Shown here: in pieces, positions 10,136-60,754 of the stretch
How positions within the stretch are numbered: position 1 is the first letter of the stretch
Layout of the letters: each line of letters begins with the position of its first letter
Source of the DNA: Panorpa germanica
Lineage: Eukaryota; Arthropoda; Insecta; Mecoptera; Panorpidae
Assembly: GCA_963678705.1 (NCBI GenBank)
Contig: OY783209.1
Coordinates: 14,074,001-14,138,000 of the forward strand
Direction of reading: 5' to 3'
Length of the DNA stretch: 64,000 nucleotides
Position numbers and translations under genes: made by a program
The notes under the pieces: generated by a model
Told to the model about the DNA's origin: nothing
Databases searched by the model: none
Seen by the model: only the letters and a program-made list of their open reading frames with translations

Positions 10136-11016
10136 GTAAAATTTATTATTATTAATATACTGGTAATTAATAATAAACACCCGTGTAAATATCTTTCACT
10201 TCCTTCTTGACAGCTTTTTCTTTATGATATTCTGGTAGCAAGTATCCTTAAAAGGACTATTTGATGCTTTACCGCTAGGTAAAATAATTAATAATTCTTT
10301 TTGGATGCTTTATAATTAATTTTTAATTTTTTAATTCTTAGTTCTTATTGTAGTATTCGCAGTAGAGCTCAAGAGCGTGGTGTGCTGGTGATGTCTCACG
10401 ACTGAGGGGGGATTGTCACGGGTACACTTTTTCACATTTGATTTATTTTTACTAGGGGTATTGTCACGGGTACACTTTTTTGTATTTAATTTATTTTTAC
10501 TAGGGGTATTGTCACGGGGACACGTTTCAGAGTTGAAACTTATATCAGTTTCAGAATCTGATTTAATATTTATTAGTTGTCAGGGTATTAGGCCGCACGC
10601 GCAGGGAGATACCGCCACCAGCACTCCAAAAAATAACTAGCTTGCTACGGCCTTTGTTGTAAATACTTCTGCTAAGTACAATGCAGATAGTATTCTGTGA
10701 TTAGGTGTTTTACAAAAAGGGGGCTATAAATAGTCCCCAGTTTGTTATTGTCACGTGTTAGGTGGAAGCGAAACTAGGTGATAGCAGTGTTGAAGTTATG
10801 TTTTGGCGGTACAAGGACTGTCTGTGGCTATGCCAGCAAGGATCCAAGTACCACCAGTGTGCGTGATAGGGTGACTGTCAAGGAGGTTTGCCCTTGGGAT
10901 GTATGTATGGCTGTACAGTGACTGTGGTCTCCTAAGGAGCTCCGATCCTTAAAAGATATCCGTTCAAAATCATCCTCAAATCCTGATCCTACCGAAGTAG
11001 GACTTTACATCAAAAG
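10136..11016 (-). mobile_element. A3: 5' leader of a lineage-A REL element, interrupted
   Basis: Read on the minus strand from 11016, this starts with the same hairpin-containing head as the A2 and C leaders (core CCTACTTCGGTAGGA, 10986-11000). It continues with blocks shared with the A2 leader, for example CTAGTTATTTTTT and the stretch around 10600-10690 (compare 17760-17830). It follows a U2 junction directly. No coding region of the element is found before J1 begins at about 10135. The leader contains a 48-bp tandem repeat. Confidence 0.7.
10408..10525. repeat. 48-bp tandem repeat in the A3 leader
   Basis: The motif ATTGTCACGGG starts at 10412, 10460 and 10508, exactly 48 bases apart. Each unit includes TTTATTTTTACTAGGGGT. 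About two and a half units are present. Confidence 0.85.
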
Positions 11017-11031
11017 GCTGATAAGAACAGA
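11017..11031 (-). other. U2 snRNA-derived junction between A2 3' end and A3 leader
   Basis: The minus strand reads TCTGTTCTTATCAGC, identical to 15 consecutive bases of the conserved U2 snRNA 5' region (about positions 40-54). It lies exactly between the A2 3' UTR and the start of the next leader, so I read it as retained target sequence or target-site duplication. Confidence 0.75.
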
Positions 11032-11448
11032 GTAAAATAATATATTCTAAGGATTCACTAAATACAAGTCATCGAAAGTTTCTAAACTATTTAAATTATT
11101 CCATTGAATTTGCTTAAGAAATTGAGATTACAATATAATAATAAGTTCAAACAATAATAAATGTTCAATAGTTGCGTTCTTTCTTGATTGAAGTTCAATG
11201 AGAAGATGAAGTTCCGTAGAGATGTTCCCATGATGCGAAGACTTGTAGTTTCTTTTATGTCCATATCCCTCGTTGCGTCTCATTATTAAAGCGTTCGAGA
11301 CAGTGGAAAAGTCACGCCCAGTATTCACTCAAGTGTCAAGGGAAAAACCACTAAAAAACCATGACAAGGCGGGTAATGGACAGGTAATTATTTAGTGATA
11401 TAATTTTACAGAATCACTAAACATTGTTACCATTGATGGTAAAATAAT

Positions 11449-14400
11449 TTATTGTACATTATTACCATAAACAGGAATAGTTTGTCTATTTCCTGTTATG
11501 TGCCAGATGTATATGCTTCTAGAGTGTAAGATGGTTTCAGACACCGCAAATTTACGCAAGGTTTTAGCGTAAGATTTAGTACACAGTGTTTTCATGAAGC
11601 CGTCGTTGCATGGATCCCAAGAACCTAGGGATCCAATAATTAAAGGAATTACTTGTACACTCTGGAATCTGTCTGAAAGTTCTCTTCGAATGTTTTTATA
11701 CTTTTCTAGCTTATTTCTTCGCGCTTTTTCAAGAGCTTCAAATCGATTTTCAAATGGAATTGTTACGTCGATGATGAAGCAAGATTCTCCTTTAAAGGTC
11801 TTAGATTGTCACTACCAATTCCTTGGTTTTCTGACATAATTGTAAAGTTACGGCCAATTGCAGCATTCTTAATTCTTTTGAGAAAAGCGTTGTGACGGTC
11901 AGTGTAAGAGGAGCCGTATCTTTGTAGACAACTATTTAATACATGTCCTAAAGTTTCTTTTGTCTTTTTACATACTCTGCATAATTGTTCATTTTCTGGA
12001 AGCCATGGCATTGCTCCGTACAGTTTAACAAGATTTAGACGAGCTTTGTGAATAAATTGCCATTCGACAAATCTTGTAACTTGTGCATCATTAATGAAGT
12101 GTGAACTTGCAGGGTGTTTTGAAGAACATTCTAATACTTTTCCTTGTCCTTTTAGAGCAATTAATTTCTTTGTGCGATCTTTTCGATTAATAGTGCGTAG
12201 GATTTGCTTGGTGTTACGTCGTTGATGTTCCTTTATATATGTGTCATTTTGATTTAAAGAAACACCTTCTGATGTAAAATTCCAATTTACAATAATCCTT
12301 CGTGATGCAACTCTTGCTCGTGTCCAGGTGTTAGATAAAGATGTTGTCGGAGCTCTAAATATACCTTCACTATTTCCAGAAAGGTAACTGCCCTTGTCTT
12401 CAAAAGATGGGGGGGCTTTGTAGCAGTTTGTGAAAGTTTCTATAAGTTCTTCATTAGCTAGATCTGCTATGAGACAATCTTTCGAAGTTAATAGTTTAAA
12501 TGCATTATCAATTAATGCGATATCGCTGTCAGTTGCAGTATTAGGTATGTATACCAATATATCCTAGTTTTGAATACCCATATATGTATTCTCCTGATGC
12601 TTCTTGTGGAATGTAGAGCGATTTTTTAATTAGAGGCCTCATTTTATTGTCTAAGGTTTCCCACATAGTTTTGGTGCAAGATCCTACTCTCATTAAAAAG
12701 TTACATGCTGGATACATGAAAGTTTTCAATGCATTTAATCTTTGCCATGGCGCTAATTTACATGACATGATGTTTTGTCCAATCGTTGCAATCTTCTTAG
12801 TATCTGCATTTCTTGGTATGATATTGAAACCTACTGGAGCTCCCAGAGATTTCTCAATATCATCTTCTTTTAAAGTACTAATATTATCATTATTTATTTT
12901 AAAGATGGCCTGATTGTCTTTAGCATTGAACTGCATAGAGAAGCATTTTTTGGGGTTAATTAATAATCCAACTCTATTCGCTAGTTCGCTTGTTTCATTA
13001 ATCAGTTCTTGAAGATTGTTTACATCTTTTCCTATTAAAATAATATCGTCAGCGTATGCGATGACTTTGTGTTCAAGATGATTTGCTTATAGTTTACGTA
13101 TAATTGGGTCTATTGCAATGTTAAAAAGTAGACCGCTTAATGGACATCCCTGTTTAATACCGCTGTTAAGGGTAATTGGTTCTGTGTAACCATTTGAAGT
13201 TAATACTTTCGTTGTGTTATCTAAGTAGATGTCTTTTATGATATTAACAAAAGTTTCTCCAGACCCTGATGCTGTTAATGCATTTAATAATGCTTGGTGT
13301 GGAATGGAACCAAAGGCATTGGCAAAATCAATCCATCCAATACAAGTTTTGTTGTGTTTTGAAACTTTTGCTTTTTTAATGATGTTTTATAAAATAAAGT
13401 TGTTTTCAAATACTCCATCGAATGGTAGGAATCCTTTTTGACAATAACTTAATACATTAAATTCAGAAATCCAGTCCAATAATCTTGTTGTTAATAATCC
13501 TGTGTATAATTTGTAGATTGTCCTGCAAATGGCAATAGGTCTCCAATTGCTTATTTCATTTTCACTGCCCTTTTTATGGATCAAGATGATTGTAGATGTT
13601 TTCCATGGAGACGAAATTTTCTTATATTTCAAGCAGCAGTTTAAAATCATTGTTAAGATTTTACAACTAGGATCTACTGTTCTCCAATGGCGATATGTAA
13701 GACGATCGTCACCTGGAGAAGAGTTTTCAAACTTTCTTAGTCCCATTGAGACTTCTGGTGGTGTACATTTCCTAGTATTCACTTTATCTCTTGTATCATC
13801 ATTGATAATTGGATAAATATCATTCGGATAATTCACCAGTGTTAATGTTTTGATGAAATGACTATGAATATCTTCTTTGCTGATTTGACACGTTGTGCTT
13901 ACTTCACCCATAATTAGACGCATTCTATTCCTATTCCTATTGTAAAGTTTTTGAATAAATTTAGCATCATTAATATCACCATAGCTACGTGGTTTTGCTC
14001 CATAATTGGGGTCTCTTTCAGGTAATTTTACAATTTTCCCCGCTTCATTTGTAGCATTTACTAGTATGTTTTCAAAGTTTTCCCAGTTAATTGCATTAGT
14101 GTTGCTATTAAGTATTGCAATTAAGTATTGCAATTAGTGGATCTTTAAAACCAATAAGAGGTGAATCATCACTAATATCATCAGGAATTCGAGGAATTAG
14201 GTAATTTACTACCTCTGTTTCATCTTCAATATCTGAGTTATTCAAGTCATCTGCATGAATACTTGGTATCTGAGAATTTTCAGTACTATTTGTACTTTCA
14301 GTGTTGTGGGATAAATTCAGATTTGTTGTTACAATTGTTTCGGTAGTTATTGTTGTTTCTACTACATTATTTGTTATTGGAGACTTTACAGGAATAGGTA

Positions 14401-15700
14401 ATGTTTCAATAATTGGTGAAGAAGTTGTAATAATACTTGCTGAAGTTTGACGTTGAGGTGATGTGGAAGGAACTATTTTGTCAGTGACATTAGAGATTGT
14501 TGGAATAACATGTTCATTTCTTACATTCTGTAATTCTATTGGATCAATTGGATTAAAAAATGAAGTAATAGAAGGATTTGAGTTTGTGTTGTTACTTGTT
14601 ACGTTGTTGTTCCTATTGCGTCCAAAGTATCTTCGTTTCTTCTGCCTTGTGTCAGGAGGGCTTATTCTTGATTCCGGTGGATTAGCCTTGTTTTTCATAT
14701 CTACTAAAATGTGATTTCTTTCGTGATTAATTATCCCTTGTTTAGAAGGACATGACCAAATACAATGTTTACATTTGAAGCGAAATTGTACTATTGGTCT
14801 ATTGCTGTTTGTTTGCGGCGCTAGGCAAGTTGCTAGATGCCATGATGATTTGTTAAGCATAACTTTTCTACAGTTATTACAATAGAATATCTCATTTTTA
14901 ATTCTGATATTATGTTGATGTTCTAAGTGTCTTTTGACATTTTGTTTCGAAGCTGTCCATGCAAAACATTTAAATGTTTTGTCACAATCATTTTCTGGGC
15001 AAATCATTGCTTGAGGAGTAGGAAAATAAATTGTTAATGAAGTATTTTCTCTTGTTGGTTGATTATTCAGTAATATATTTGCACCAGGTTCTTCATGGTT
15101 ATCAATTAACGTTGAGTTTAAGATTGTTATATTACTTGGACTAAATTCATGAAGTGTGTTTATTTCTAACGAAGATGAAGATGTTGAACTGTTGTTATTA
15201 AAGTCAGGATCTTTTACAGAATCATCAACACCTATTTCAGATAGATTATCAGGTGAATCTACCGTGTCTTTTGGTTCTATTCTAATAATTGTGTTAATAT
15301 TACTAGTGTTGGAGTTCGCAGAATCATTATTATCTAAATCAACAATCTCGTGAGTAGATATTACAGGGCTAATTGTCTTGTTGTTGTCTATTGAATTCCT
15401 TCTTGCGATTTTCTGTTTTATAACACTATCACTGATACTATTAATCACATTCATTGCCTTTAAGTCAACCCCTCCAGCATCTGATTGTGACAAAACATCA
15501 GTGACAATGTTATTTTTCGCTGTACTTATTGACAGCACATCATCGACAGAAAAGTTGAGGACCTTGGGGGATCTAGGAGTGGAAGGGATTGGAGTAATCT
15601 CTTCATTCAGTTTTCTTATTTTAACAGGAACCTCTTCAGTAGAAGTTTTCACTCCACTTGGAGATTCATGTGGCCTAACTAAGTAAACTAATGTTATTCT
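11449..15700 (-). pseudogene. A2 main protein: zinc fingers, RT, REL endonuclease (broken)
   Basis: The decayed protein matches the intact A1 ORF along its length. Three N-terminal zinc fingers are visible (CPENDC, then CNNC...HLATC, then CKHC...HERNH), then SPGDDRLTYRHWR, GSENEISNWRPIAICRTIYK, CQKGFLPFDGVFENN, GIKQGCPLSGLLFNIAID and AYADDIILIGKD. The C-terminal CCHC (CRVCKKTKETLGHVLNSC) and part of the endonuclease follow. Lesions: a frameshift near 15690, another near 14120, TAA at 13387 (Q in A1), TAA at about 13090 (Q in A1), a frameshift at about 12550, and a small deletion at about 11783 that removes the catalytic Asp of the RPDLVL motif and shifts frame. The end at 11449 corresponds to the A1 C-terminus (GNNVQ). 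Confidence 0.88.
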
Positions 15701-17640
15701 CTCCTTCAGTTTTTTTGTTTATTCTTTGGTCGAGTAATTTAAGTATGTTATTTAAATCTATTTTGATATTCTCGACCGCCTTATCCTCTATTATATCAAA
15801 TTTTTGTTTTGATTTATTCAGAGGGGCATGCTTGTCCATTTTTGGGGATAAGTGTTCTTCTGGTAATTTGACATTGACGGTATTGACTACAGAAGTGCTA
15901 ATACCCGACAGACGATTCACGAGATCGCATCGGGCGAACTCCGAAGTTCCTTTGTGTTGTTGCACAACTGAGCCATTCATAATGTCAAAATTATCTTATT
16001 GTTTACTATTCAGTTCCTGTGATTTGACAATATTGATAACAGAAAGCTTGGAATCCGTAGTATTACCACATTCTGCAGTAATACAGCTGGCAATGTTTAC
16101 ATTATTTAATTCCACCGTTTCTGTTTCATTCAAATTGTCATTTTCATTGAGATCTGAATTTTCGGGGGATTTTCTTAATGTTGAGTTGGAGAATAACATA
16201 TTAGGACAACCTAGGAGGTCACGAGTAAGAATATCCTTTGGAGAAAGGATATTATTTAATGTTGAGTCTAGAAGATTAAAATCATTAGGTAGGTTAGAGT
16301 TCATAAAAATTAACGCATTATCTAATGACCGCGAGACTATCGCTATTAGTTTTTTCGAATGGTGGACACGGTTTTACATATTTATTTACATTATTGTTAG
16401 AAGAATTAATAAAAGGTTTAATATTTTTAGATAAGTTAGAGTTTAAATACGGTGGGCAGGACTTGTTGCAAAATTTTGATGGTTTTTTGTATTTTACGGC
16501 TTCAGCGTATGTCTTAGGGTACGTTATCTGTTGATTTGGAGAAGAGGATTCTATTGAGCTAGTGGAAAAGAGTGACGGAGAAATAATTACAATTCGTGGA
16601 ATTGATCTAGGTGATTTTAAGGTGTTCGATGAGTAAAATGCTTCTGGACGACATCCAAGGTCAAGAGGATCTGAACGCGCACCAAATAAATTTTGTTCTG
16701 AACGCACACCAAATAAGTTTTCCTTAGTTAAATTAGTTTTAATGTGATTTGAAGAACTGGAGGACGAGTTATCTAGTAATGAGTCGATGTCTTCGTTACT
16801 TTCTATCGTATCTATTCTAGTTTTCTTAATTTTTTCTGTTTGGTTTGGATCTTTACTATAAATTAACTGATTACGGGGAGTCTTTTTACTAATTAATCTA
16901 GTTTTAATGTGAGTAGAGACGTCAGAAGAGGAGCTATCAATTGAAGAAGACGATTCTTCATTATTTTCTATTGTAATATTATGGGTTTTCCTATCTTTTA
17001 TTGTTTGGTTTAAATCTTTGCTAATAGTACAAGATGATGGATGTTTTAAATTCTGCAAATTGTTTCTTTTAATAATCACGGTGTTGGTAGAAGAGCTAAC
17101 TTTAGTCAAAGAAGAATCTTTATTTAAAATCGTTAAAGAATTAAGTTCTTTAATACGTTTTTGTGATTGGTTTGAGTCATTACTAGAACACGAGGAAGTT
17201 TCAGAAGAGGATTGATTTAAAGAGTTGTTGTTTTTTAAGATGAGGGAGGTCTTTCCTTTACTAATCGCTGCTTTTTTAGTGAAAATTCTCGTTTTGAACT
17301 GTTTGTTTGAATCTTTGCTATTTGTTTTTACTTTACTATTAACAAGATAGCGCCGCGTGTTCTTTTTGATAGAGTCTCGCGATTCGCTACAAGTAATGCG
17401 ATTGTTTATTGGTGGAAGTTTACGATTGATGTTATTGTTGTCTTCGGGATCTGAAATGCAATAATTTCGCGAACTCTTATCATTAACAACTCCCTCAGCA
17501 GTGAATACCATCGTAGGAATACCTTTTGGTACCTCTGATTGCTCAGGGGCACCTAAAGTATTTCTCTTTGGCATTCTGTGCAAAGGTGTTGATGATGGTA
17601 AAGTGTAAACGTTACTACCGGTGTTTAAAGTCTTCGCCAA
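15675..17640 (-). pseudogene. A2 N-terminal ORF region, no known domain, with internal repeats
   Basis: I do not recognise this protein. The first piece (17640-16318) is 440 codons, Ser/Asn/Lys-rich. Its first ATG is at 17574 (MPKRNTLGAPEQ), because the frame upstream begins at a non-ATG codon. It contains about three copies of a 55-60-residue unit with the recurring words SKD-NQ, THN/TRI, TIE-NE, a poly-Ser stretch and HIKT. The frame then stops, and two further open pieces (16304-15996 and 15980-15675) lie in one shared frame split by a single TAA at 15996-15998. It could be a separate ORF1 or a long N-terminal extension of the zinc-finger protein. No Ulp1-type protease or CCHC motif is visible. 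Confidence 0.6.
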
Positions 17641-18265
17641 TCAGAAACTATACCTTGAAGCACGTTTGCCAGGCAGGGAGTAACCGTTGTTGAAGAATGC
17701 TTAAGAAATGTAAAAGATTTCTTAAGTGATGGCTGTTTGTTGGATCGCATACACAGAGAGATACTACCAATAGCACTCGAAAAAATAACTAGCCTGTTAC
17801 GATCCTTCTTGTACTACTCAGCGAAGTGCAGTGCTGAAGCAGTTGTGATTACGTTAAATTAACTAAGAGTTCTACCTGACGGGAACAGGGTACCCTTAGA
17901 AAATGTTTAATGTAAAATGTAAGCTAGGTGATAACGCAGTGTAGCTTGTGAATTGTTCTGGCGTACTCTAGCTAGCGACAACAGATGTTGAACGGACCAG
18001 AGTACAACCAAGTGTGCTGATTGGTGAGTTGCAGTGGGTTTTCAAGGCTATCAGTGGTTAGACCAGCATGGACCAAGAAAATTACCACTGCGGATGAACT
18101 GTGTGATGGGCAAAGGCTATGGTCACCAAATGATGCTCCGACCAATGACACCACCACGAAGTGTAATGACCACTTATCAACTACCTAGCAAGATCACCAA
18201 AAAAGATATCTGTAGCAAACCAAACTTCAATTCCTGGTCCTACCGAAGCAAGACCTTAAATTAAA
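17641..18265 (-). promoter_or_regulatory. A2 5' leader with U2-like head
   Basis: The leader starts right after the U2 junction with a stem-loop (core GGTCTTGCTTCGGTAGGACC, about 18237-18256). It then shares blocks with the A3 leader (CTAGTTATTTTTT and neighbours). Many R2-type elements carry a self-cleaving ribozyme at this place. I could not fold this by hand well enough to claim one. Confidence 0.55.
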
Positions 18266-18283
18266 AAGCTGATAAGAACAGAT
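18266..18283 (-). other. U2 snRNA-derived junction between B1 3' end and A2 leader
   Basis: The minus strand reads ATCTGTTCTTATCAGCTT, 18 bases identical to insect-type U2 snRNA (about positions 39-56). It separates the B1 3' UTR from the A2 leader. This is the longest and cleanest of the three internal U2 junctions. Confidence 0.85.
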
Positions 18284-21200: not shown

Positions 21201-22139
21201 TCGTCTGCATCTGCCTTTCTCCTGGATGTAGCTGTATTGTCTCCTCTATCTGGGAACTTTATTTTGATCGCGACGGTTTCCGTTATTCGCTGCATGACGT
21301 TTTCAAACGTTATCCAATTCTCGAATGTCGTCGGTGCTCTCTGGAGTTTTAACAGGGGGTAATGTATTCCCTTAGTGGAATGTTATCTCCCAGATCTTCC
21401 AGCTGTTCTTCCGCTTCTGATGGAACCTGCACAGCAGGTGGAGCTGCACCCACCATGACTATGTCTAAGTCATGTGCATGGTTTACATCATCGGCGTCAG
21501 AGCACCTTCTGTACTGTCGCTATCTGCGTTCTCATTATCGTTGTCTTCCTCTTCTGCGATCACGTTCTGTACCCTTCTGCGCTCCTGTCTAGTGTTTGGT
21601 ACCGGTAAAGAGGTACTACCATTCACCTCCTCGTTGATACGCCTCCGCCTGTGAGCAGTTGCGTGGTTCGATAGAGCTCTCGCATTAGCGTAGCTTTTCG
21701 GGCACTCATAACAGGTATATCTTAATACCGGTTCTGCATTCCTAGGCCTACGCAAATACATCATGCCCGCACATGATTTGTTGTTCGTAGGGCGCGCTCC
21801 GAGGTTCTCTTTGCAGAAGGTACATACATGCTGCGATCGCTTTAGTCGCATATTGTGATACTGCTCGAAGTGTCTCTCTAGAGAGGCCTTACCCTGGGCC
21901 CACGGATCTAGGTCATACTGTAAATGACTGCATCCTTCCTCCGGACATTAAAGCTTTGCAGGTAGCGGGAATTTAATGTACAGGGTATAATGCACCCTGT
22001 ACGGCTGATTTACAATCAACACCGCTGCTCCTGCTTCAACCTAAGATGTTTCCGAGGGGGCAGACGCGTCATTTCGGTTATTTGCTTCGGCAGAAGCTGC
22101 TCGGGTCGTAAGCCTAGTGGCGATACCATGTTAAGCACC
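18284..22139 (-). mobile_element. B1: lineage-B REL retrotransposon copy, 5'-truncated
   Basis: The minus-strand copy ends with a 3' UTR of about 480 bp, containing the inverted-repeat block TCGGCAATTTCCCGCCGA (18474-18491), that abuts the U2 junction at 18283. At its 5' side it is cut inside the N-terminal coding region at 22139 and joined directly to the 3' UTR of B2. It is a frameshifted relative of B2 and B3 and is inactive. Confidence 0.88.
18768..22130 (-). pseudogene. B1 protein: zinc fingers, RT, REL endonuclease (broken)
   Basis: The C-terminal part (20213-18768) is one open frame. It carries the RT thumb and linker, the CCHC knuckle CRRCENPYETLPHVLCHC, and the endonuclease core RPDLVL (here KPDLVLVRGETCY) followed by IVDVTIPFENRREAME. 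Upstream, the RT palm (GIKQGCPLSGILFNLAID, VLAYADDIILL), the RT fingers (WRPISICSTVYKLYAGCLTR) and the zinc fingers are spread over at least five frames, with shifts near 20200, 20440, 20710-20730, 21100 and 21480. It lacks the first 50 or so residues because of the fusion at 22139. The stop at 18768 follows WHLTGHRQE, as in B2 and B3. Confidence 0.88.
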
Positions 22140-31330: not shown

Positions 31331-31640
31331 CTGATACTATTACGAGGAAGTTAAATTTGTAAAAAGAGAAGTCAAATAAAAAGTAAAAAACAAAACAAAT
31401 CAAAAAGTCAATATAGATATAAAATAAGTTGAAATGTTAGTACGGTAAAATGAATTTAAAAGTGACGCTTATTGTTATGACCTATATACGCGAACTTGTT
31501 ACATGGATTATAAACCTATGGATTTACCCGGAATGTACGCGTTCGTGCAATGGGCTCCGAGCCCTGAATGAATACGTTTGTGCAAAATATAAATGAAATC
31601 AAATACGTACGAGTTATTGCAAGAAATTACGGTGAATTAC

Positions 31641-35362: not shown

Positions 35363-35393
<31 letters not shown>

Positions 35394-36215: not shown

Positions 36216-36789
36216 ATTTGGTGAAGTGCCCTATTTAGTGACGTTCGACTCACTCGTACAATTCAATTCTAACGCTTTACAAGTTCGAAGCAACAACACA
36301 GAAACCAATTTTAGTTCAAATTTATTCCCTACCTGTCAAGATTTTGTGAAATAAAATCTGATATATGTAGTCTTAGCAAGTTCGTTAATAGTTCAAAAGT
36401 GGTACATAAAAGTCGCTTTTAGTTTAATTTGATTCTCTACCTGTCACAGATTTTGTGTTAGTTGTTATTTAGTATAGTATAGTTAGTATATTTTTTCATA
36501 ATAATATTCTTTCTTTTTCCAACATCATTCATTAAGTAGCAGTTGTTTCTTTCACACTAGGATATATATTTTTATAGTTCATTTTCATTCCAAAGTGAGA
36601 GAGAAACGAGATGCGGTTAGACAAGTAAAATATATTTTTCACCGTTACACTTGTATAGTATTTCGTTCAGTACAGAATGTTTAAAGTATATGCTATCCTT
36701 TTTCAACAAATATTTCTTTAATGGTAATAGGCACACGCTGTCTCCCTCAATCTCCGAATATAATGTGTTTAAACGAATAACACCCTTTG
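36216..36789. other. Non-coding stretch, includes sequence replacing the C element 3' end
   Basis: There is no recognisable gene. The lineage-C reading frame runs on to 36617, but the residues after about 36790 (NTLYSEIEG onward) do not match other REL proteins. The real element therefore ends near 36790 and other sequence follows. Confidence 0.5.
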
Positions 36790-39700
36790 ATATGAAATTA
36801 TGGCTCGCTTTGTGAAGACGGACACACTCTGCAACTTTCCCTTGTGACCGCTTACTCACCAGCGCGTCGGCTTGTTCCTTGCGGTATTCTCCTCTTAGTT
36901 TCTTCAAAACTAGGTGACGATTGTCCTCTCCCATTTCTATGTGGTTTCTTGTTAAGAGTAGGACATCACCATTCGTCTCGAAGGCCCATTGAAGATTTTG
37001 TCGCTCCGATGCCGACCTCGCTGCTGACCAGGAGTTTCTGGGAGTTGACGCTCTGCTGATGTGGTCATCGCTCTCCTTCCCCGATAGAAAATCTGCCAGA
37101 TGTTGCGGAGTTGGCAGCATCTTCACCCGAGTGTGTACAGTGCTCTCTAGCTGCTGTCTTGCCGATTTCCTGACTATCTCGTCTCTTGATGTCAACAGCT
37201 TGAAGGCGTTGTCAATTAACGAGAAGTCACTATCAACAGCAGCATTCGGGATCCCGATGCAGCCAGATCTTCTTTCCCCATATATATAGAAGTTCGTCGC
37301 GTTGTCCGGTAGATAGAGCGTCCTCTTAATCTCCGCTCGCATGCAGTCGTCAAGTTTCTCATATTCCTGCTTGCGGAAGGCGTTTGTCCGCATCGGAAAG
37401 TTTAACATCGGATACACTCTATGCCACGGTGCGAGATTAGAACGCATGATCTTCTTTCCTTTGCTAATCATTTGTTCCATTTCTTTCAGATCCGGAACAA
37501 TCCGGAAGCCTACTGGAGCTCCCAGAGACTTCTGAATTTCCCCATCCCTCAAGCAGTAGATGGGCTCTTCATTGATGCGGATGTCAGCATCTCTTAACGC
37601 AACTTGTCGACTGGCTGGCATCCAGAAGCATTTGCATTTCGTAGGCCGGATCTTAAGGCCTATCCTGGCTGCCCTAGTGCAAACAGTATCGATGTTGGTC
37701 TGGATCTCGGCAAGTGATCTTCCGAGTAACACCACGTCATCTGCATAGGCCAGCGCATTGTGAACATCTACTTCCGGTCCTTGGACTTCTCTGATGATTG
37801 GGTCGATGGCAAGGTTGAAGTGGATACCACTCAGCGGACAACCTTGTCGTATCCCTCTTCCGATTTCTATATTCTCCACTTTTCCGTCTGCAGTGCGTAT
37901 GGTGGTAAAGTTTTGGCTGTACATCTCCCTCACGATGTCTCCAAATTCTTTTCCAGCTCCTGCGTTAAGAACAGCTTTGTAGATCGCCTCGTGCGGAATT
38001 GACCCAAATGCATTTTCGAAGTCCAGCCATGCAATGCACAAGTTCCTCTTCTTCGTTCTCGCATCGTATATTCTCTGTTGAAGTATGTGGTTGTTTTCGA
38101 ATACACCATCGTGTGGAAGGAATCCTTTCTGGCACGGGCTGAGGACGTTATTTCTGATCAGCCAGGGTGTCAAACGTGCCGCCAGACAACCTGTATATAG
38201 TTTATATATGGTCCTGGTGATGGCAATTGGCCTCCAATTCTCTATATCTTCAGTGGGTCCTTTCTTATGTATGAGGATAGTGAAGGAGGATTTTCATGCT
38301 TCCGGTATTCTTTTGAAGTGAAGGCACGCGTTGAGGATCTTCGTGGCTACCTTGCACCCTCTGTCTGCTCCCCTCCAGTGAGAATAGGTTAACCTATCAC
38401 TCCCTGGAGCAGAGTTTTCAAAGAGCCGTAGCTTTTTCAACACTTCGTCTTCGGAGAACTTGTCTGTTATCTCCGGGATCCTGTCCACTTCTTTATCCTC
38501 ATAGATGTCGTTGGGATGCTCTACTCTCCTTAGTGAATCCGAGAAGTGGTTCCTTATGGTAGCAGAGTCGATAGGGTACCTGCTTGCGACTTCTCCCATA
38601 ATGGCACGCACCGCTCTTCTTCTGTTTCTTTTAAACAGCCTCTGAATCACAGCAGGGTTGCCAACATTAGGAACTTTAGCTGTATAGGAGTTGTCCTGTA
38701 ACTCTGGCAGTTTAACAATTCTTGAGACTTCTTCGGTTATTTCTTGAACCAGCTTCTCAAATATTGGCCAAGCTTCTTCCTGGTTTGGCGCGTCTATGAT
38801 GTCTGTCAGCTGCTGGCCAAACATAGTGTGAAGCGTTGGAGAGTTGCTGGGAGAGTTCTCAAGATCGTCTGACTGTTGTGAAGCTATCGGAAACGTCGGA
38901 GGACACGAAGTTGTTATTTGCGAGATTCCTGGTGGATCTTGTAGAGTTTCGTCCGATTCTTGGGTGGATGCGGGCAAATCTGGTCTTAAATTTGCCAGAT
39001 CAACCAGTCTTTGTAGCGTATTGTAGATATATCTAGTAGGATACGCACTCCGACCTGGTTGTGTTGTATTGATACCCTGAGTTGTAGTTTCAGTATCTTC
39101 TTCGTGATTGGTGGGGGATATGCTCCGATGAGGTTGTGTTGGAACGATACTCATAGTGGGGGATGTGTTCCGATCTGGTTGTGTAGGAACGATACCCTCA
39201 GTTGTATTTTCAGTAACTTGTTCGTAACTGGTGAGGGACAAGTTCCGATCTGGTTGTGTTGTGATATTTTCTTCTTCATTTTCAATTTCTTCAAGTATTG
39301 TAGAGTTCAGGGGGGGTCGCCATCTCTCCTTTCCCTCCTTCTGGCTGCAGATTGAGTTTCCGGGTTTGGCAGAGTGATATTGCCATTGACCACCTGTCTC
39401 GTTCGCTCGAGTGAGTGCACAGAGATATGATTTCTCAATCCCTGAGCAGATGGAAATGTTTCCGAGCAATCCCGGCAAGCGAAGGGGTGAACCAGCGTGT
39501 CGTGAATCGTTTTAACTGGTGCGCTACATTTGTGGCTTTATGGTCTGGCCGATAGACACTGCAAGCAATCACGACACGCGTGGATGGAGGTGATGTTCGT
39601 GATGGCATGTTCCTCTTTTAGATGTCGAGTGAGGGCCATCTTGTTCACCGTCCATGATTTGCTGGAGACGAATGAGCTGCTGCAATTGTCCTCTGTGCAG

Positions 39701-39891
39701 TGGAATGTCGTCGGCAGCGGGAACATCAAGTACAGGAATCTTCCCCTCCTCAGTCCCTGGTTGTTCAACCCAGTGGCTGCAGCTATCTCCTCCAGGGGAT
39801 GTTCTGCGATGTCATTTTCACGGCTGGGGGTGGGCGACCTTCCCTCGCTGCTGCTGCTTCTACTGTAACTCCGTAGTCTTCTACGGCTCAT
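36790..39891 (-). pseudogene. C protein: zinc fingers and RT, endonuclease lost
   Basis: It starts at ATG 39891 (MSRRRLRSYSRSSSSEG). Finger 1 is CTEDNC ... HLKEEH, finger 2 is CRDCLQC ... HKC, and finger 3 is CRDCSETFPSAQGLRNHISV followed by H. Lesions: TAA at 39538-39540 inside finger 2, a frameshift near 39340, and TGA at 38294-38296 where the relatives have Trp (PKAWKKS). The rest of the RT is open: CQKGFLPHDGVFENN, WLDFENAFGSIPHEAI, GIRQGCPLSGIHFNLAID, ALAYADDVVLLG. Similarity to relatives ends at KASHNFISKG (about 36790). The CCHC knuckle and PD...D endonuclease are absent, so the copy could not have moved by itself after this loss. Confidence 0.85.
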
Positions 39892-40098
39892 TATTGTTAA
39901 TTCCTAATGGAACTTCAGGTACAGGGGTTAAGGGTGGGAAGGGTATTACAAGGGGTATTCACAGGGGAAGATTAAGTTACGGGGGTGATATATAGTGGGG
40001 TATTCTCGGGGGAAGTGTGATTTACGGGTGAGGGGCGGGGGTTGATATATAGAGTGGTATTCACGGGGGAAAGGCAGTTGACGGGGGTGATGCAAAAA

Positions 40099-40545
40099 GT
40101 TGCATACGAGCTTATGGCTCAGGGTGAAGGGGTGGTATGCGGAAGGCATGAGCGAGAGTGTAAGCAAAAAGTTGCATACGAGCTTATGGCTCAGGGTGAA
40201 GGGGTGGTATGCGAAAGGCATGAGCAAGAGTGTATGCACAAGTTGCATATGAGCTTATGGCTCAGGGTGAAGGGGTGGTATGCGGAAGGCATGAGCGAGA
40301 GTATATGCACAAGTTGCATATGAGCTTATGGCTCAGGGTGAAGGGGTGGTACGCGGAAGGCATGAGCGAGAGTATATGCAAAAAGTTGCATACGAGCTTA
40401 TGGCTCAGGGTGAAGGGGTGGTATGCGGATGGCATGAGCGAGAGTATATGCAAAAAGTTGCATATGAGCTTATGGCTCAGGGTGAAGGGGTGGTATGCGG
40501 AAGGCATGAGCGAGAGTATATGCACAAGTTGCATAATAAGCCTTA
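40099..40545. repeat. 71/72-bp minisatellite in the C leader
   Basis: GTTGCATA starts at 40099, 40171, 40242, 40313, 40385, 40457 and 40528, giving spacings of 72, 71, 71, 72, 72 and 71. Each unit contains GAGCTTATGGCTCAGGGTGA and GGCATGAGC. There are six full units plus a partial one. The unit length near a multiple of three creates apparent ORFs on both strands, which I do not regard as genes. Confidence 0.92.
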
Positions 40546-40762
40546 AGGGCTGGAAGTAGATAGGGCTGAAGGCCCTATTGCTATGCAAAACGTGCATAGC
40601 TTGTCCTAAGGACGGGAAAAATGAAGCAATGCAAGCTTCGGGGGGCCTGAAGGGCAGGTGTAGGGAGGGGTGGGGAGAAGGAAGCGGGGGATTCCAAGGC
40701 TATCGTTTGCTATGCAATTCGGACCGAGAAAACCCCCCAAAGGGTACCTGTTAACCTGAAGA

Positions 40763-40811
40763 ACCATCAGGGTTGATGGTTTCTATTATTCTGACATAAA
40801 GTCAGAATAAT
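40763..40811. other. Two adjacent hairpins in the C leader
   Basis: ACCATCA/TGATGGT (40763-40780) is followed by an 11-bp perfect inverted repeat ATTATTCTGAC/GTCAGAATAAT (40785-40811) with a 5-base loop. They lie in the leader about 190 bases after the U2 junction in the sense direction. Confidence 0.75.
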
Positions 40812-40970
40812 GCCGCACGTCGTCCTAGTCCTAGTCCGGGCCTGCAAGTGTAGTAACGTACACTTCCAGTACTCCTAACGTAACCGCTTAGTCAAGATCT
40901 GAAAAAGCGGTAGTATCGAAACAAAACAACTTTTAATTACTGGTCCCACCGAAGTAGGATTTTCATTGCA

Positions 40971-40981
40971 AAGCTGATAAG
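40971..40981 (-). other. U2 snRNA-derived junction between A1 3' end and C leader
   Basis: The minus strand reads CTTATCAGCTT, 11 bases matching U2 (about positions 46-56). On its own this is short, but it stands at the same place between two elements as the 15- and 18-base junctions and is followed by the same leader head (CCTACTTCGGTGGGACCAG). Confidence 0.65.
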
Positions 40982-41005
40982 TTTGTAACTTAGTTACAAA
41001 CTTAT
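40977..41005. repeat. Perfect 14-bp inverted repeat at the A1 3' end
   Basis: ATAAGTTTGTAACT (40977-40990) is the exact reverse complement of 40992-41005, with a 1-base centre. The palindrome overlaps the U2-derived bases of the junction. Confidence 0.9.
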
Positions 41006-41342
41006 TCTCAATATTATATTCTCGGTATTCAATAATATACAAGTCTCAATAAATATTAACCTTAAAAATTATTTTGTATCTCATTAATTTGCTTAATATA
41101 TTACTACATTTTATTTAAAAAAAATTTTTTTAAGTTCTTTCTTCGGTATATGTTCATGATGGCTTCATTTTATAGCTGTTCCCAAGATGCGTAGAACTGG
41201 TAGTATTTTAGATGATTCTCGAGATATAAGCAGATTATATACAACATTTATTTAGATTGTCTTGAGTTGTTGTCAAATAAAATATATTTGTTAATATATA
41301 GATATTTGAAATAGTGTCATATAGATTATTTTAGAACATGTC

Positions 41343-44300
41343 TTATTGCGCGTTGTTGCCGAATACAGGAATAACTTGTCTATTGCCCGTAATATGCCAG
41401 ATGTAGATGGCTCTTGAATGTAGGATAGTTTCGGACACTGCTAATTTTCGTAGGGTTTTGGCATACGACTTGGTGCATAGGGTTTTAAGAAAGTTGTCAT
41501 TGAATGGGTCCCATGAACCAAGTGATCCAATTAATAGAGGTATTATCTGGACGCTCTGAAATCTATCAGAGAGTTCCTGTCTGATGTTTTCGTATTTTTC
41601 CAATTTATTCCTACGCGCTTTTTCCATAGCTTCGAAACGATTCTCGAAAGGTATTGTGACGTCGATTATGAAACAAGTCTCACCTTTGAAGAGAACAAGG
41701 TCAGGTCTTAGATTGTCTCTTCCAAGTCCTTGATTCTCCGACATGATGGTAAAATTTCGGCCAATTGCAGCGTTTTTAATACGTTTCAAGAAAGCGTTGT
41801 GTCGTTCCGTGTACGATGATCCATACTTCTGTAAGCAGCTATTCAAGACATGTCCTAGGGTTTCCTTCGACTTTTTGCACACCCTACAAAGTTGCTCGTT
41901 GTCATGGAGCCATGGCATTGCTCCATAAAGTTTCACTAAGCTAAGTCTAGCTTTATGTATGAATTGCCATTCTACGAATCTTTTGTATTGGGCATCATTA
42001 ATAAAATGGAAGCTGGCCTGGTGTTTAGATACGCATTCCATTGTTTTGCCCTGGCTTTTTAATTCATGTAGGATTTTGGTATGGTGTTTTCTGTCCATTG
42101 TTCTGAGTATCTTCATGGTTTGACAGCGTTGAGGTTCTCTGATATATGTGTCATTGTGGTTCAGAGAAATCCCCTCCGTTGTAAAACTCCATGTTACTAT
42201 AATGCGCCTGGAAGCCAATCGAGCTCTTGTCCAAGTATTAGCAGTAGATGTTGCAGGTGCCCTAAATATACCTTCTATTTCACCAGAAAGGTAATTTCCT
42301 TTATCCTCATTTGAAGGAGGGGCGCGGAGTCTGCTTATGTACGTTTCATTCAGCTCTTTCATTGCCAGGTCAGAAATGATGTGGTCTTTTGACGTTAATA
42401 ACTTAAATGCATTGTCAATCAAGGAAATGTCACTGTCCATGGCTGTATTTGGGATGCCAATACAACCCTGCCTTGAATATCCATAGAGGTAGTTGGATGA
42501 TGCCTCTTGAGGTATGTACAGTGATTTCTTAATTAGAGGGCGCATTTTGTTATCCAATTGTTCCCACATGGTCTTAGTGGAGGAACCAACTCGCATTAGA
42601 AAGTTGCATGCCGGATACATGAAGGTCTTAAGTGCATTGATTCTTTGCCAAGGTGCAAGTTTGCACGACATGATGTTTTGTCCTATTGTGGCAATAGCTT
42701 TTGTATCGGCATTGCGAGGGATGATGTTAAAACCTACAGGGGCGCCAAGTGAACGTTCAATTTCATCCTCTTTGAGGTTTCGGATATTTACGTCGTTGAT
42801 CTTAAAACATGGTGGATTATTTACAGAGTTGAATTGCATAGCAAAACATTTTTTGGGGTTGATGAGGAGCCCCACACGTTTTGCTAAAGAACTTGTTTGA
42901 TCAATCAGTTCTTGTAAGTGCGTATAATTATTACCTATTAGGATGATATCATCTGCGTAAGCAATGATCCTATGTTCAAAATTAGAACCTTGTAGCTGTC
43001 TTATTATAGGATCAATTGCGATGTTAAACAGTAATCCGCTGAGTGGACAACCCTGTTTTATTCCACTATTTAGGTTGATTTGATCCGTGTACCCATTGGC
43101 TGTCAGAACTTTTGTTGTATTGTTCGTATATATGTCTTCTATGATGTTAACGAAATTAATACCTGCACCTGCAGCAGTAAGAGCATTAATTAGAGCTTTG
43201 TGAGGTATAGAGCCGAATGCATTAGCGAAATCTATCCATCCAATAGATGTTTTATTGGTTTTGGATGACTTAGCTTTTCTGATAATGGTTTGCAAAATAT
43301 AATTGTTCTCGAATACGCCATCAAAAGGTAAGAATCCTTTCTGACAAAAACTCAGAACATTATTATTAATCAGCCAATCCGTAAGTCTAGATGTAAGTAG
43401 TCCTGTATATATTTTGTAAATAGTACGGCAGATTGCAATTGGCCGCCAATTTGTTATCTCCGCTTCACTACCCTTTTTATGTATGAGTATAATAGTAGAA
43501 ATTTTCCAAGGTGAAGGTATACGTTTGTATTTTAAACAACAGTTTAAAATATTGGTTAAAATTTTGCAGCTCGGATCTGCGGAGCGCCAATGCCTGTATG
43601 TTAACCTGTCATCACCTGGAGACGAATTCTCGAATTTCCTTAGCCTAATTGATACCTCAGGTGGTGTAAACTTCCTTGTATTTACCTCCTCTCGCACACC
43701 TTCCTCTACGGGAGGGTATATATCATTAGGGTACTCTATATAGGTTAGTGTCTTAGTAAAGTGGTTATAAATATCCTGTTTGCTGATTTGGCATGTCGTA
43801 CTATTCTCTCCCATTATCAAGCGCATGGCTTGTCTCCTATTACGTTTATATAATTTTTGTATGAATTTCGCGTCATTAACGTCACCTATATTGCGTGCTT
43901 TAGCAACATAATTGGGGTCACGGACTGGGAGTTTGACAATTTTACCTGCCTCTATCGTTATTTCTGTCAAAGTGTCTTCAAACTTTTCCCAATTATTTGA
44001 GTTTATATTACCATTTATTATCGTTAATAGAGCGTCATTAAAACCATTCAATGGTGAATCCTCTGTGATGTCATTAGGTAAACGTGGGAAGTTATCATTT
44101 ATGATTTCGGGTTCCTCGTCTATATCGGAATTATTGATATCTGCAGCGTGAGGACTTAAAGGTAATGTGAAATCCGAAATCATACTGCTTACTATGGAAG
44201 CTTGCGATTGAATATGCTCTAAATTGATAATCGGTGAAATGGTACTAATAATGGTATCTGGAATTGTTGGAATCTCATTTGTGGACACAATTTCTATAGG

Positions 44301-45017
44301 TGGAATTATAGGTGATGGACTATTAATAGTGGGTGCATTCATAGTAGGTGTTCTAGTTAGAATTGTTATATTTGGTACATTTGTTGGTACAATATTATGT
44401 TCTGCAATTATAGGAGATGTGGTATTGACAATAGGCGCATTTAAAGTAGGAATAGATGTTCTTGTCATAATAGGTAAATTTGATACAATAGGTGGTACAG
44501 TATTTTGTTCTGCGATGACGTTATTATTATTGGTTCCATGATTACCACGCCCATAGTACCTACGTTTGCGTTGACGCGTGTCTGGAGGGCTTATTTCAGA
44601 CCCTGGTGGGTTGATTTTCTTTTCCAGATCACTTCTTAGATGAGTTCGCTCATGGTTTACAACACCTTGATTCGATGGACAGGAATATTCGCAAAACTTG
44701 CATTTAAATCTAAATTGAACCACCGGTTTGTCACCTACTGGGATTGATGATACGCAATAAACAAGATGCCAAGAGGGCTTACTTCTAATAACGGAATGGC
44801 ATGTGTTACAGAAAAATATAACATTTTTTATTCTTGTCTGATGTTGCTGCTCTAGGTGTCGTTTTAGATTTTGCTTTGATGCTGTCCATGCAAAGCATTT
44901 GAACATTTTATCGCAACCAGCTTCAGTGCAAGTCATTGCCTCTGGTGTAGGGAAATAGATGGTGAGGGAATCGTTCTCCCTTGTTGGTTGATTATTAAGG
45001 ATCAAGTCAGAACTCAT
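41343..45017 (-). CDS. A1 retrotransposon protein: zinc fingers, RT, restriction-like endonuclease
   Basis: A 1,224-residue protein without any stop or shift, which would recognise a DNA target, nick it and reverse-transcribe element RNA there. Zinc fingers: C30-C35-H54-H59, C70-C73-H84-C88 and C106-C109-H122-H126 (the CCHH-CCHC-CCHH order of R2-A-type proteins). A Thr/Ile/Pro-rich linker follows. RT motifs: SPGDDRLTYRHWRSADPSCK, TNWRPIAICRTIYKIYTG, GIKQGCPLSGLLFNIAID and the catalytic AYADDIIL near residue 687. The C-terminal knuckle is CRVCKKSKETLGHVLNSC (about residue 1045). The PD-(D/E)XK-type endonuclease is RPDLVL ... FIIDVTIPFE near residue 1103. The frame is open for a further 67 codons upstream, to 45219, without an ATG, and this stretch also matches A2, so the natural start lies beyond the truncation. 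Confidence 0.92.
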   Translation of the reverse strand: MSSDLILNNQPTRENDSLTIYFPTPEAMTCTEAGCDKMFKCFAWTASKQNLKRHLEQQHQTRIKNVIFFCNTCHSVIRSKPSWHLVYCVSSIPVGDKPVVQFRFKCKFCEYSCPSNQGVVNHERTHLRSDLEKKINPPGSEISPPDTRQRKRRYYGRGNHGTNNNNVIAEQNTVPPIVSNLPIMTRTSIPTLNAPIVNTTSPIIAEHNIVPTNVPNITILTRTPTMNAPTINSPSPIIPPIEIVSTNEIPTIPDTIISTISPIINLEHIQSQASIVSSMISDFTLPLSPHAADINNSDIDEEPEIINDNFPRLPNDITEDSPLNGFNDALLTIINGNINSNNWEKFEDTLTEITIEAGKIVKLPVRDPNYVAKARNIGDVNDAKFIQKLYKRNRRQAMRLIMGENSTTCQISKQDIYNHFTKTLTYIEYPNDIYPPVEEGVREEVNTRKFTPPEVSIRLRKFENSSPGDDRLTYRHWRSADPSCKILTNILNCCLKYKRIPSPWKISTIILIHKKGSEAEITNWRPIAICRTIYKIYTGLLTSRLTDWLINNNVLSFCQKGFLPFDGVFENNYILQTIIRKAKSSKTNKTSIGWIDFANAFGSIPHKALINALTAAGAGINFVNIIEDIYTNNTTKVLTANGYTDQINLNSGIKQGCPLSGLLFNIAIDPIIRQLQGSNFEHRIIAYADDIILIGNNYTHLQELIDQTSSLAKRVGLLINPKKCFAMQFNSVNNPPCFKINDVNIRNLKEDEIERSLGAPVGFNIIPRNADTKAIATIGQNIMSCKLAPWQRINALKTFMYPACNFLMRVGSSTKTMWEQLDNKMRPLIKKSLYIPQEASSNYLYGYSRQGCIGIPNTAMDSDISLIDNAFKLLTSKDHIISDLAMKELNETYISRLRAPPSNEDKGNYLSGEIEGIFRAPATSTANTWTRARLASRRIIVTWSFTTEGISLNHNDTYIREPQRCQTMKILRTMDRKHHTKILHELKSQGKTMECVSKHQASFHFINDAQYKRFVEWQFIHKARLSLVKLYGAMPWLHDNEQLCRVCKKSKETLGHVLNSCLQKYGSSYTERHNAFLKRIKNAAIGRNFTIMSENQGLGRDNLRPDLVLFKGETCFIIDVTIPFENRFEAMEKARRNKLEKYENIRQELSDRFQSVQIIPLLIGSLGSWDPFNDNFLKTLCTKSYAKTLRKLAVSETILHSRAIYIWHITGNRQVIPVFGNNAQ

Positions 45018-45191
45018 TATTGTATTTGTATCATTATGGTTTAAGTTATTAGTAGCGTTATTGCCATTGTTTCGATTTACTGACTTAATTGAAGATGATG
45101 ATGATCCTGAGTTAGAAAAATCAGGGTCATTTACTGAGTTGTTAATATTTTCTTCAATTGTATTGTTTGATGATGATATTTCCGGGGATTT

Positions 45192-45222
45192 GGATAAGTT
45201 AGATGGAATATCTAACTTATCC
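45192..45222. repeat. Perfect 13-bp inverted repeat at the A1 5' end
   Basis: GGATAAGTTAGAT (45192-45204) is the exact reverse complement of 45210-45222, with a 5-base loop GGAAT. It lies at the truncated 5' end of A1, seven bases from the U2 fragment. Part of it is coding in the A1 frame. Confidence 0.9.
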
Positions 45223-45228
45223 TAGTTA

Positions 45229-45261
45229 ACTTTGATCTTAGCCAAGAGGCCGAGAAGCGAT
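45229..45261 (-). ncRNA. U2 snRNA 5' fragment (first 33 nt), truncated by A1
   Basis: Read on the minus strand from 45261, this is the canonical U2 start ATCGCTTCTCGGCC, then CTAAGATCAAAGT, with one difference from common insect/vertebrate U2 at about position 16. It breaks off at position 33, immediately before the branch-site recognition sequence GUAGUA, where A1 begins. As it stands it cannot make a U2 RNA. The rest of the gene is not continuous downstream. Whether the upstream promoter (a PSE about 55 bases before the start) is intact I cannot judge, because the insect PSE is variable. Confidence 0.9.
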
Positions 45262-60751: not shown

Positions 60752-60754
60752 GCT

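Follow-up and report, generated by a model that had tools for sequence, protein, structure and literature searches.

A U2-like 5' leader as a possible landing site of stacked Utopia-type LINEs in Panorpa germanica

Introduction

The window, a stretch of 64,000 nucleotides from Panorpa germanica (contig OY783209.1), which COX1 assigns to Panorpidae, carries a head-to-tail stack of LINEs, with short words of U2 snRNA at the joints between elements. Are these words target sequence, or do they belong to the elements, and could newcomers land on them? The four U2 junctions of the window are real, as re-checking of the sequences against Panorpa germanica U2 confirmed: three words, TCTGTTCTTATCAGC (15 nt, 11017-11031), ATCTGTTCTTATCAGCTT (18 nt, 18266-18283) and CTTATCAGCTT (11 nt, 40971-40981), and U2 nt 1-33 in front of the element A1 (45229..45261), all on the minus strand. 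The U2 reference was taken from the same genome, in which there are 27 U2 matches, the best two being L001 and L002. In 464 Mb, the 14-mer TCTGTTCTTATCAG occurs 35 times versus 4 for the reversed control, and a U2 5'-half pattern occurs 65 times in the genome versus 0 for its control; hence, the junction words are not due to chance. An earlier, sequence-only reading described the junctions as 11-18 nt of U2; the words indeed match, but the U2-likeness continues to approximately nt 100.

Elements of the window

Within 4.5-46.6 kb, all tblastn matches to REL LINEs lie on the minus strand, as previously noted for the REL copies, although E, which had been listed among them, is not a REL element. 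A1 (40982..45228) is a Utopia-type LINE that is 5'-truncated as compared to the copy in L023, with a frame open over 45221-41343 and an ATG at 45017. At its 3' joint (40981), approximately 28 nt of palindromic filler precede the next leader, and the joint is not exact. This leader (40887..40981), composed of CTTATCAGCTT and a stem-IIb-like hairpin, opens the Utopia-type LINE D (36617..40981 including the leader), which has 72-bp tandem repeats in its 5' UTR (40090-40535) and two ORF pieces (39511-38294 and 38293-36617) and lacks the endonuclease end. Three B-type copies follow, also of Utopia type: B3 (B_c, 26974..31643) and B2 (B_b, 22139..26973), both with approximate 5' limits, and B1 (B_a, 18284..22140), which lacks its 5' part. 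The sequence after the 3' end of B3 (~26976) is not U2 but AGTGTAGAGGGCGC, which also stands after four D-type 3' ends and is taken as the putative 5' end of B. B2 lost its 3' UTR tail at the join to B1. The 3' end of B1, whose alignment with the U2-anchored end of B holds to within 8 and 6 nt, meets a further leader (18189..18283) at the position of U2 nt 39.

This leader belongs to a 7.2-kb Utopia-type LINE (11032..18283 including the leader), whose two portions, C (16318-17640) and A2, had been read as separate elements; they constitute a single one, since the same gene order (C, x15996, A2n, RT, REL) is repeated in L029, where true U2 40-193 follows. Its frames comprise a first ORF (17640-16321), a linker ORF (16373-15999) and a broken zinc-finger/RT/REL frame (15718-11449). 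The 3' end of A2 exactly adjoins the U2-like leader (10937..11031) of a further A-type element, an N-terminal piece of which (4523..5011) is found past the nested LINE E (5020..10400, limits approximate). E encodes ORF1 (10067-8538), an apurinic-type endonuclease (8353-7106) and an RT (7105-5669), and the endonuclease rules out its earlier assignment to REL. Keno, a Tx1-clade LINE with an apurinic endonuclease like that of E, uses the same U2 site as Utopia according to the text of PMC4640811, whereas E lies within a Utopia-type element and not at U2 nt 39. In L024, a 94% copy of E, also inside a Utopia-type element, is flanked by the ordinary duplication CTAAA(A)TTGTACAA, and no U2-like match adjoins the 3' side of E in the window, which excludes Keno.

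Upstream of A1, the U2 1-33 sequence (45229..45261) is fused to the element's 5' end, and a remnant of another REL LINE comprising the RT/endonuclease end (F, 45866..46556; 38-42% to A1/B) lies further upstream; all features of the window given here are on the minus strand. The 33-mer is one base off L001, matches the U2 5' half of L060 exactly and scores 32.3 bits in the Rfam U2 model, under the gathering score of 46. A reading of it as the left part of a U2 gene broken in two is rejected, since no U2 promoter lies upstream (score 10 versus 144-148 for true genes). Among the 65 occurrences of the 5'-half pattern, 46 places were examined (the window, L027, L030-L033 and L057-L096), the remaining 19 being five members of a six-fold U2 array, nine true or divergent U2 genes and five places with two mismatches. 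Just two of the 46 have a U2 promoter (L027 and L060), and ten have target-site duplications of at least 8 nt, as compared to 0.175 expected from shuffled pairs. The U2 1-33 copies look like tailless U2 retropseudogenes, a class treated in PMC5322556, or template jumps.

Assignment to Utopia

A1, B, D and C+A2 are REL LINEs of the Utopia type. A pattern search of A1 yielded C2H2 at 174, YADD at 755, CCHC at 1112 and PD..D at 1173, which we take to be a C2H2 zinc finger, the RT (YADD), a CCHC knuckle and the RPDLVL..IDVT endonuclease; the RT has a Pfam match of 5.4e-34. A1 thus has the Utopia architecture, a single protein with N-terminal zinc fingers, the RT and, at its C-terminus, CCHC and a restriction-like endonuclease. 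In Pfam, A1 matches only RVT_1 and, below threshold, L_protein_N; there is no Myb domain, the absence of which separates Utopia from R2 in the text of PMC13188248. The named nearest proteins (41-46%) are from spiders, ticks, aphids and springtails; spiders, ticks and aphids are among the Utopia hosts given in PMC4640811. R2, the 28S-specific REL LINE, is similar to these elements across the RT, solved R2 chains being matched with E down to 9.8e-61; however, the target of R2 is 28S, whereas that of the Panorpa elements is U2, and A1 has no Pfam match to Myb. An R2-type 28S insertion was not encountered: the only 28S sequence among 50 scorable 3' flanks is an antisense piece (L130).

The U2-like leader

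The leader consists of a target word, in which nt 40-53 are nearly exact, and a hairpin that resembles stem IIb and has a TTCGG loop of its own, and it copies U2 just downstream of the nt 39/40 site. It opens three lineages (A-long, C/A2 and D). Compared to host U2, the TTCGG loop and CTTTTGATGAAAAG are common to separate loci, and the non-host differences recur on contigs C1, C5, C6, C10, C42 and C47; therefore, the leader belongs to the element and is not a remnant of the target. The joining pieces hence constitute the 5' termini of the elements that follow, instead of target regenerated 3' of each copy, as the sequence-only reading had proposed. In one case (L034), the leader begins after true U2 40-124, within a U2 gene; in L057 and L059 it comes after U2 1-33.

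The likeness to U2 extends past the 14-mer: for each of five related leaders, none of 2000 dinucleotide shuffles reached the gapped score. In register, two D-type leaders have only 2/24 matches to U2 nt 66-89, and their likeness requires a one-base shift. This shift, the inexact A1/D joint of the window and the stacking of B, which has no leader yet stacks, are counted against a landing pad. The putative hairpin and CCAG are retained in most aligned leader sequences; stem IIa has lost its second strand. Changes in the hairpin are one-sided, with no compensatory changes seen, and its structure therefore stays putative. A known self-cleaving ribozyme at the leader is rejected: Rfam gave no such match up to E 10 in L048, L057, L059, L060 and L082. 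The leader may have originated from a piece of U2 located 3' of the cut, which an element took up at its 5' end, e.g. via a long target-site duplication, and then retained.

Leaders and true U2 as neighbours of 3' ends

A leader query gave 33 genomic matches. At 21 of these, including L040, which is the D reference itself, a Utopia 3' end aligns to within 15 nt on either side, and at 14 to within 2 nt. Six more have a B-type neighbour with altered last bases (L039, L041, L042, L044, L120 and L123), for four the neighbouring 3' end was judged by eye (L048, L056, L117 and L126), and two (L129 and L130) fall into none of these groups. Utopia-type 3' ends thus meet the leader at, or a few bases from, the position taken in true U2. 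The exactness of the joints stems partly from selection, as 18 of the 33 leaders were first selected by an intact 14-mer; of the other 15, ten differ at one or two bases of the 14-mer, four have lost part of it and one is of the D type, and 5/15 joints are exact within 1 nt. Nineteen of the 33 leaders (C1 eight, C5 five, C10 four, the window two) have none of the 27 U2 matches within 390 kb, a separation that may partly reflect segmental copying; many of the 33 are segmental copies, and the independent events are therefore fewer than 33.

Genome-wide, 50 Utopia-type 3' ends were scorable. Six adjoin a true U2 gene, at the site published for Utopia (nt 39/40), and 20 a leader, in agreement with the earlier proposal that several related REL LINE lineages use one U2 site and stack head to tail. 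At the six loci (L021, L022, L023, L024, L029 and L034), A1-, A2- or B-type 3' ends precede a U2 remainder of nt 39/40-193, which reaches only to ~124 in L034. D-type 3' ends lie at true U2 in 0/12 cases and at a leader in 5/12, and the U2 nt 39 flank was hence found for A1, A2 and B only. A cleanly arranged stack in a U2 gene (C6:16211.2-16196.5k, read except for 4.2 kb of its middle) comprises a U2 promoter, U2 1-38, an A2-type element, a leader with its A-type element, and U2 39-193.

Random 3' flanks of other copies were to speak against U2-directed insertion in the sequence-only reading; the outcome is mixed, with 24/50 scorable flanks being neither U2 nor leader. Nine of these are one duplicated flank, ATCGGATATTCTGG, which stands after A1-type 3' ends and has no match in a six-frame comparison to the window's proteins, so that an antisense REL identity is not supported; five are taken as the B 5' end, one is the antisense 28S piece, one is a truncated element and eight are others. 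These 24 flanks and the absence of D-type 3' ends from true U2 are likewise counted against a landing pad. At D-to-B joints (L137-L140) and at the B3/B2 joint of the window, 4-5 nt of filler precede the putative B 5' end. The base before TCTG is C for A2-type neighbours in 2/2 true U2 loci, in the window and in L023; it is A or T in A2-like copies on C5, and C in L048 and L056 beside an A1-type neighbour. The base before the leader consequently does not consistently agree with the type of the left element.

How the stack may have formed

The best explanation, judged from sequence comparison and somewhat probable in our view, is that the leader serves as a portable landing site of Utopia-type LINEs. 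The element nuclease would nick the leader in the way it does U2, and the newcomer would be placed ahead of the leader by target-primed reverse transcription; each full-length insertion would supply a fresh target, and stacks could extend outside U2 genes. The wider claim, that a site-specific LINE group internalised its own target, that nucleases of several lineages recognise the leader and that every full-length copy is a new landing pad, is more tentative, though it may well hold. Alternatively, the leader could be a passively inherited fragment in plain stacking as published for Utopia, where a newcomer inserts at the junction of the most recent element with the remaining U2 sequence and older ones are pushed upstream. 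We regard this as possible, though rather doubtful: tandem Utopia is described for Nasonia in the text of PMC4640811, with 20/94 N. vitripennis 3' flanks being Utopia, and both the 4-5 nt filler at L137-L140 and B3/B2, as a 5' join would leave, and the inconsistent base before the leader are in its favour. Against it, 14/33 leader joints deviate by at most 2 nt from the true-U2 position, while 5' ends beside U2 1-33/38 are often truncated, and a truncated element body follows only 1/50 scorable 3' ends. The truncation comparison itself is weak, approximately 6/8 being truncated (A1 of the window, L058, L060, L061/L062 counted as one, L063 and L082, as opposed to L057 and L059), because one upstream flank is common to L058 and L063 and another to L059, L061 and L062.

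A role of the leader as RNA, e.g. as a mimic of the U2 5' domain that recruits U2-binding proteins, as a mark of the transcript 5' end or as a guide of the 5' join, appears improbable. The retained hairpin and CCAG would fit such a role, as would the Rfam U2 scores of U2 1-33 plus leader (36.1 bits in L057, 32.9 in L059 and 29.5 in L082; gathering 46), but U2 1-33 accounts for most of these scores, and in L059 and L082 the alignment skips most of nt 34-85; the lost strand of stem IIa and the lack of compensatory changes also argue against it, and such a role would leave unexplained why 3' ends are located at the position of nt 39 in the leader. Least of all do we expect the pieces to be target-site duplications of U2 from nt 39 onward, longer versions of the 20-bp duplications reported for reptiles by Kojima and Jurka (PMC4640811, text), a reading already disfavoured. 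It could account for L034, where true U2 40-124 stands between an A2-type end and the leader. A duplication would match the local U2, however, whereas the inter-element pieces differ alike from host U2 at unlinked loci; the true U2 of the clean stack is split into 1-38 and 39-193 with no duplication, and arthropod Utopia is reported to lack target-site duplications in the text of PMC4640811.

Implications and relation to known systems

The persistence of several Utopia lineages in few U2 genes was a surprise to Kojima and Jurka, as worded in PMC4640811. If the leader is a landing site, an element-borne target would answer this puzzle of lineage upkeep: insertions would create targets rather than consume them, the essential U2 genes would be spared, and the group would be freed from the few U2 genes to form self-extending multi-lineage stacks. 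Landing on leaders would then explain how stacks come to grow at a distance from the small number of real U2 genes. Since the agreement between leader and U2 is concentrated in nt 40-53 and near stem IIb, an element-borne target would also offer a natural experiment on the sequence that the REL nuclease recognises.

Stacks of target-specific elements are also known from HeT-A/TART, the head-to-tail telomeric LINE stacks at Drosophila chromosome ends, and from Dada; these involve chromosome ends or target duplication and are not known to involve a target copy inside the element. Tandem Dada transposons are the subject of a figure in PMC3706591. Utopia comprises U2-targeting REL non-LTR retrotransposons of the NeSL clade (Kojima and Jurka 2015, PMC4640811), its host table there does not include Mecoptera, and Utopia stacking itself is already published in that text. 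Common to Utopia as described there and the Panorpa elements are zinc fingers, RT, CCHC and PD..D in one protein, a 3' flank of U2 from nt 39, several lineages per site and tandem insertions (Nasonia). No report of a target-like element leader was found in literature searches or in the text of PMC4640811, to which the comparison with that paper is confined. Unlike Utopia as described in that text, three Panorpa lineages have a U2-like 5' leader, which other copies adjoin.

The U2-like leader and its neighbours

Re-reading of the sequence confirmed the four junctions of the sequence-only reading, in which REL elements were joined by pieces of U2. At all three joints between elements, however, the U2 likeness extends beyond the 11-18 nt noted there and includes a stem-IIb-like hairpin. 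Across 20 aligned leaders, the U2-like 5' starts of A-long, C/A2 and D elements, this hairpin is near-constant, and the remainder falls into the types E/A-long, C/A2 and D; 18 of the 20 share an identical first 14 nt, having been chosen by that word. Fifteen more leaders were found by similarity instead: ten differ from the word at 1-2 bases, four have part of it missing and one is of D type. For each of five related leaders, the gapped U2 similarity of the part beyond the 14-mer was reached in 0/2000 shuffles; in fixed register against U2 nt 66-89, two D-type leaders match at 2/24, a one-base shift being needed, and the other three at 12-14/24. Locus L034 carries an A2-type end, then true U2 40-124, then a leader with its own TCTCTACTTATCAG, and U2 1-33 is followed by a leader in L057 and L059 and by a leader without its first bases in L082. 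Hairpin and types, shuffles and these four loci together establish that the leader is part of the elements.

A stack on contig C6 displays the arrangement cleanly. A C/A2-type copy comes after U2 1-38 with a true promoter (L060; promoter score 144 versus at most 16 for 44 of 46 examined U2 5' copies). An A2-type end then meets, at 16205292, the leader of an A-type element, and this element in turn ends at 16196668 against U2 39-193. The U2 gene is interrupted once, and the leader is additional; a single A2-type copy is assumed to fill the 4.2 kb from L023 to L060.

Elements of the stack

The open frame of A1 comprises 1292 codons with C2H2, RT, CCHC and PD..D motifs; its RT region matches solved R2 proteins, and its best protein matches reach 41-46%; those that carry a name are LINE proteins of arthropods. 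C and A2, previously counted separately, are a single 7.2-kb element, as seen from the order C, x15996, A2n (the latter two being protein query segments), RT and endonuclease before true U2 in L029. D lacks the endonuclease end in the window, and a more complete D-type copy comes from L063 with L040; the 5' UTR of D contains a 72-bp tandem repeat of about 6 copies (40090-40535), also present in L057. In their main alignments, the three B copies agree at 90-96%. E, which had been listed among the REL copies, encodes an apurinic endonuclease; since the A-type element of L023 is the same element without E, and L024 holds a 94% copy of E bounded by CTAAA(A)TTGTACAA, E is a nested ordinary LINE. 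Outside the stack lies the remnant of a second LINE with an apurinic endonuclease (59742-61854, minus strand; 29-36% to E).

Host U2 genes and the target word

The window corresponds to C6:14074001-14138000 of the host assembly (464 Mb, 249 contigs). Several Panorpa and related scorpionflies have the identical sequence over 317 residues of mitochondrial COX1, which places the host among the panorpids (Mecoptera). In this assembly, the Rfam U2 model gave 27 matches, 24 above cut-off. Two intact genes, L001 and L002, belong to a fly-like type; six others (L003-L008, on C8 and C5) are of a divergent type (CAGTTTAATATCTGATAGCTCTTG...) with the target word intact and U2 uninterrupted in 6/6. At L009 and L016-L018, U2 is present from nt 39 on, with element 3' ends just before it. 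The 14-mer TCTGTTCTTATCAG occurs at 35 places genome-wide versus 4 for the reversed control: 2 intact fly-like U2, 6 divergent U2, 6 true U2 preceded by an element 3' end and 18 leaders, while the remaining 3 look like chance.

Six identical U2 copies at C6:20.13-20.23 Mb (L010-L015) have nt 40 to about 75 swapped for about 44 unrelated bases. The replacement begins at the Utopia site, the promoter having been checked in one copy, L027, and the group is possibly the amplified scar of an aborted insertion. Two further U2 copies on C113 (L025, L026), 100% alike over 4.7 kb, have the first about 53 nt altered or lost (AAGTTTAGTATTTATC before TTAATATC).

U2 5' fragments

Of 65 places with the U2 5' fragment, 46 were examined. 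Nine of these are attached to Utopia-type elements (window, L057-L063, L082), one of them, L060, being a true gene half. L061 and L062 are mutual copies with the same upstream flank as L059, and L058 and L063 have another common upstream flank. Unbroken matches to fly-like U2 stop at nt 30-36; L060 (38) and L027 (39) are the exceptions, and tolerating one variant position extends L030, L031 and L067 to about nt 37-38. Ten of the 46 are flanked by 8-16 bp duplications (L030, L031, L033, L064, L066-L068, L076, L087, L093) and end near the Utopia cut position; such duplication-flanked short copies (about nt 1-30 to 1-38) look like tailless U2 retropseudogenes. Endpoints and duplications indicate that the 33-mer before A1 most likely arose by reverse transcription onto a 5' fragment of U2 and not as half of a split gene.

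Sequence flanking 3' ends and leaders

Four 3'-end searches returned at least 26 A1-type, 9 B, 15 A2 and 12 D matches, which merge into at least 56 distinct places once 6 shared ones are removed. Six end short of the terminus and were left out (C47:43520, C6:16383910, C6:16227536, C2:1433100, C1:3125014, C6:16656590), leaving 50 scorable. Among the matches listed, the flank is true U2 in 6, a leader in 20, one repeated flank in 9, the putative 5' end of B in 5, a truncated element body in 1, antisense 28S in 1 and other sequence in 8. Thus 26 lie at U2 or a leader and 24 elsewhere, and the probability of hitting a 14-mer present at 35 places in 464 Mb by chance is negligible; targeting is strong yet not absolute, and the proposal of repeated insertion at one U2 site holds to that extent. 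The repeated flank (TCGGATATTCTGGCATACTC or near) follows nine A1-type 3' ends (L097, L098, L100, L102, L105, L108, L109, L112, L113), probably copies of a single event.

Conversely, 33 leader matches were obtained with 100 nt of one leader as query, many of them at loci that are copies of each other, and what lies upstream of each was aligned to 3' ends from U2-anchored copies (A1, A2, B) or an ORF-linked copy (D). In 21/33, including the D reference itself (L040), the alignment comes within 15 nt of both reference terminus and leader start, in 14 of these within 2 nt. A B-type end with altered last bases precedes six more (L039, L041, L042, L044, L120, L123). Four neighbours were assigned by eye: those of L048, L056 and L117 have the appearance of an A1-type end broken by about 1.6 kb, with an endonuclease frame found only for L048 (via L132), weak D-type BLAST matches only (66%) for L048 and L117 and no BLAST match to the 3' end references for L056; that of L126, likewise without a BLAST match to these references, resembles its C5 neighbours. 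L129 is cut short, and in L130 an antisense 28S rRNA piece lies between a B-type 3' end and a D-type leader (L130:51-150). Nineteen of the 33 (8 on C1, 5 on C5, 4 on C10, 2 in the window) have none of the 27 U2 matches within 390 kb.

Landing on leaders or stacking

Target-primed insertion at one word, in true U2 and in leaders alike, would be the simplest account covering both, and we consider it somewhat probable. It is favoured by leader joints that often fall on the same base as in U2 (14/33 within 2 nt), by the near absence of truncated bodies to the right of 3' ends (1/50 among the matches listed) and by leaders with neighbours far away from U2 genes; beside U2 1-33/38, truncated 5' ends are frequent (about 6/8, not all independent). 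Against it, the joint is exact (within 1 nt) in only 5/15 leaders not chosen by an intact word, and the base preceding TCTG is not consistently tied to the left-hand family. Ordinary stacking, with newcomers placed to the right of older elements, accounts for the B-type joints that carry filler and may also account for the rest, though with lower probability than landing on leaders; that the pieces between elements are target-site duplications is very improbable.

Comparison with known U2-targeting elements

Insertion into leaders may represent a novel case, with a likelihood just short of even, in which the target has been internalised as the element's 5' leader and each full-length copy offers a new landing site. 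A target-like leader is mentioned neither in the main text of PMC4640811, to which the comparison extends, nor in the search listings of the wider literature, so that priority is not certain. Utopia itself, with its nt 39 site, the coexistence of its lineages and its tandem insertions in Nasonia, is already described in that main text (PMC4640811).
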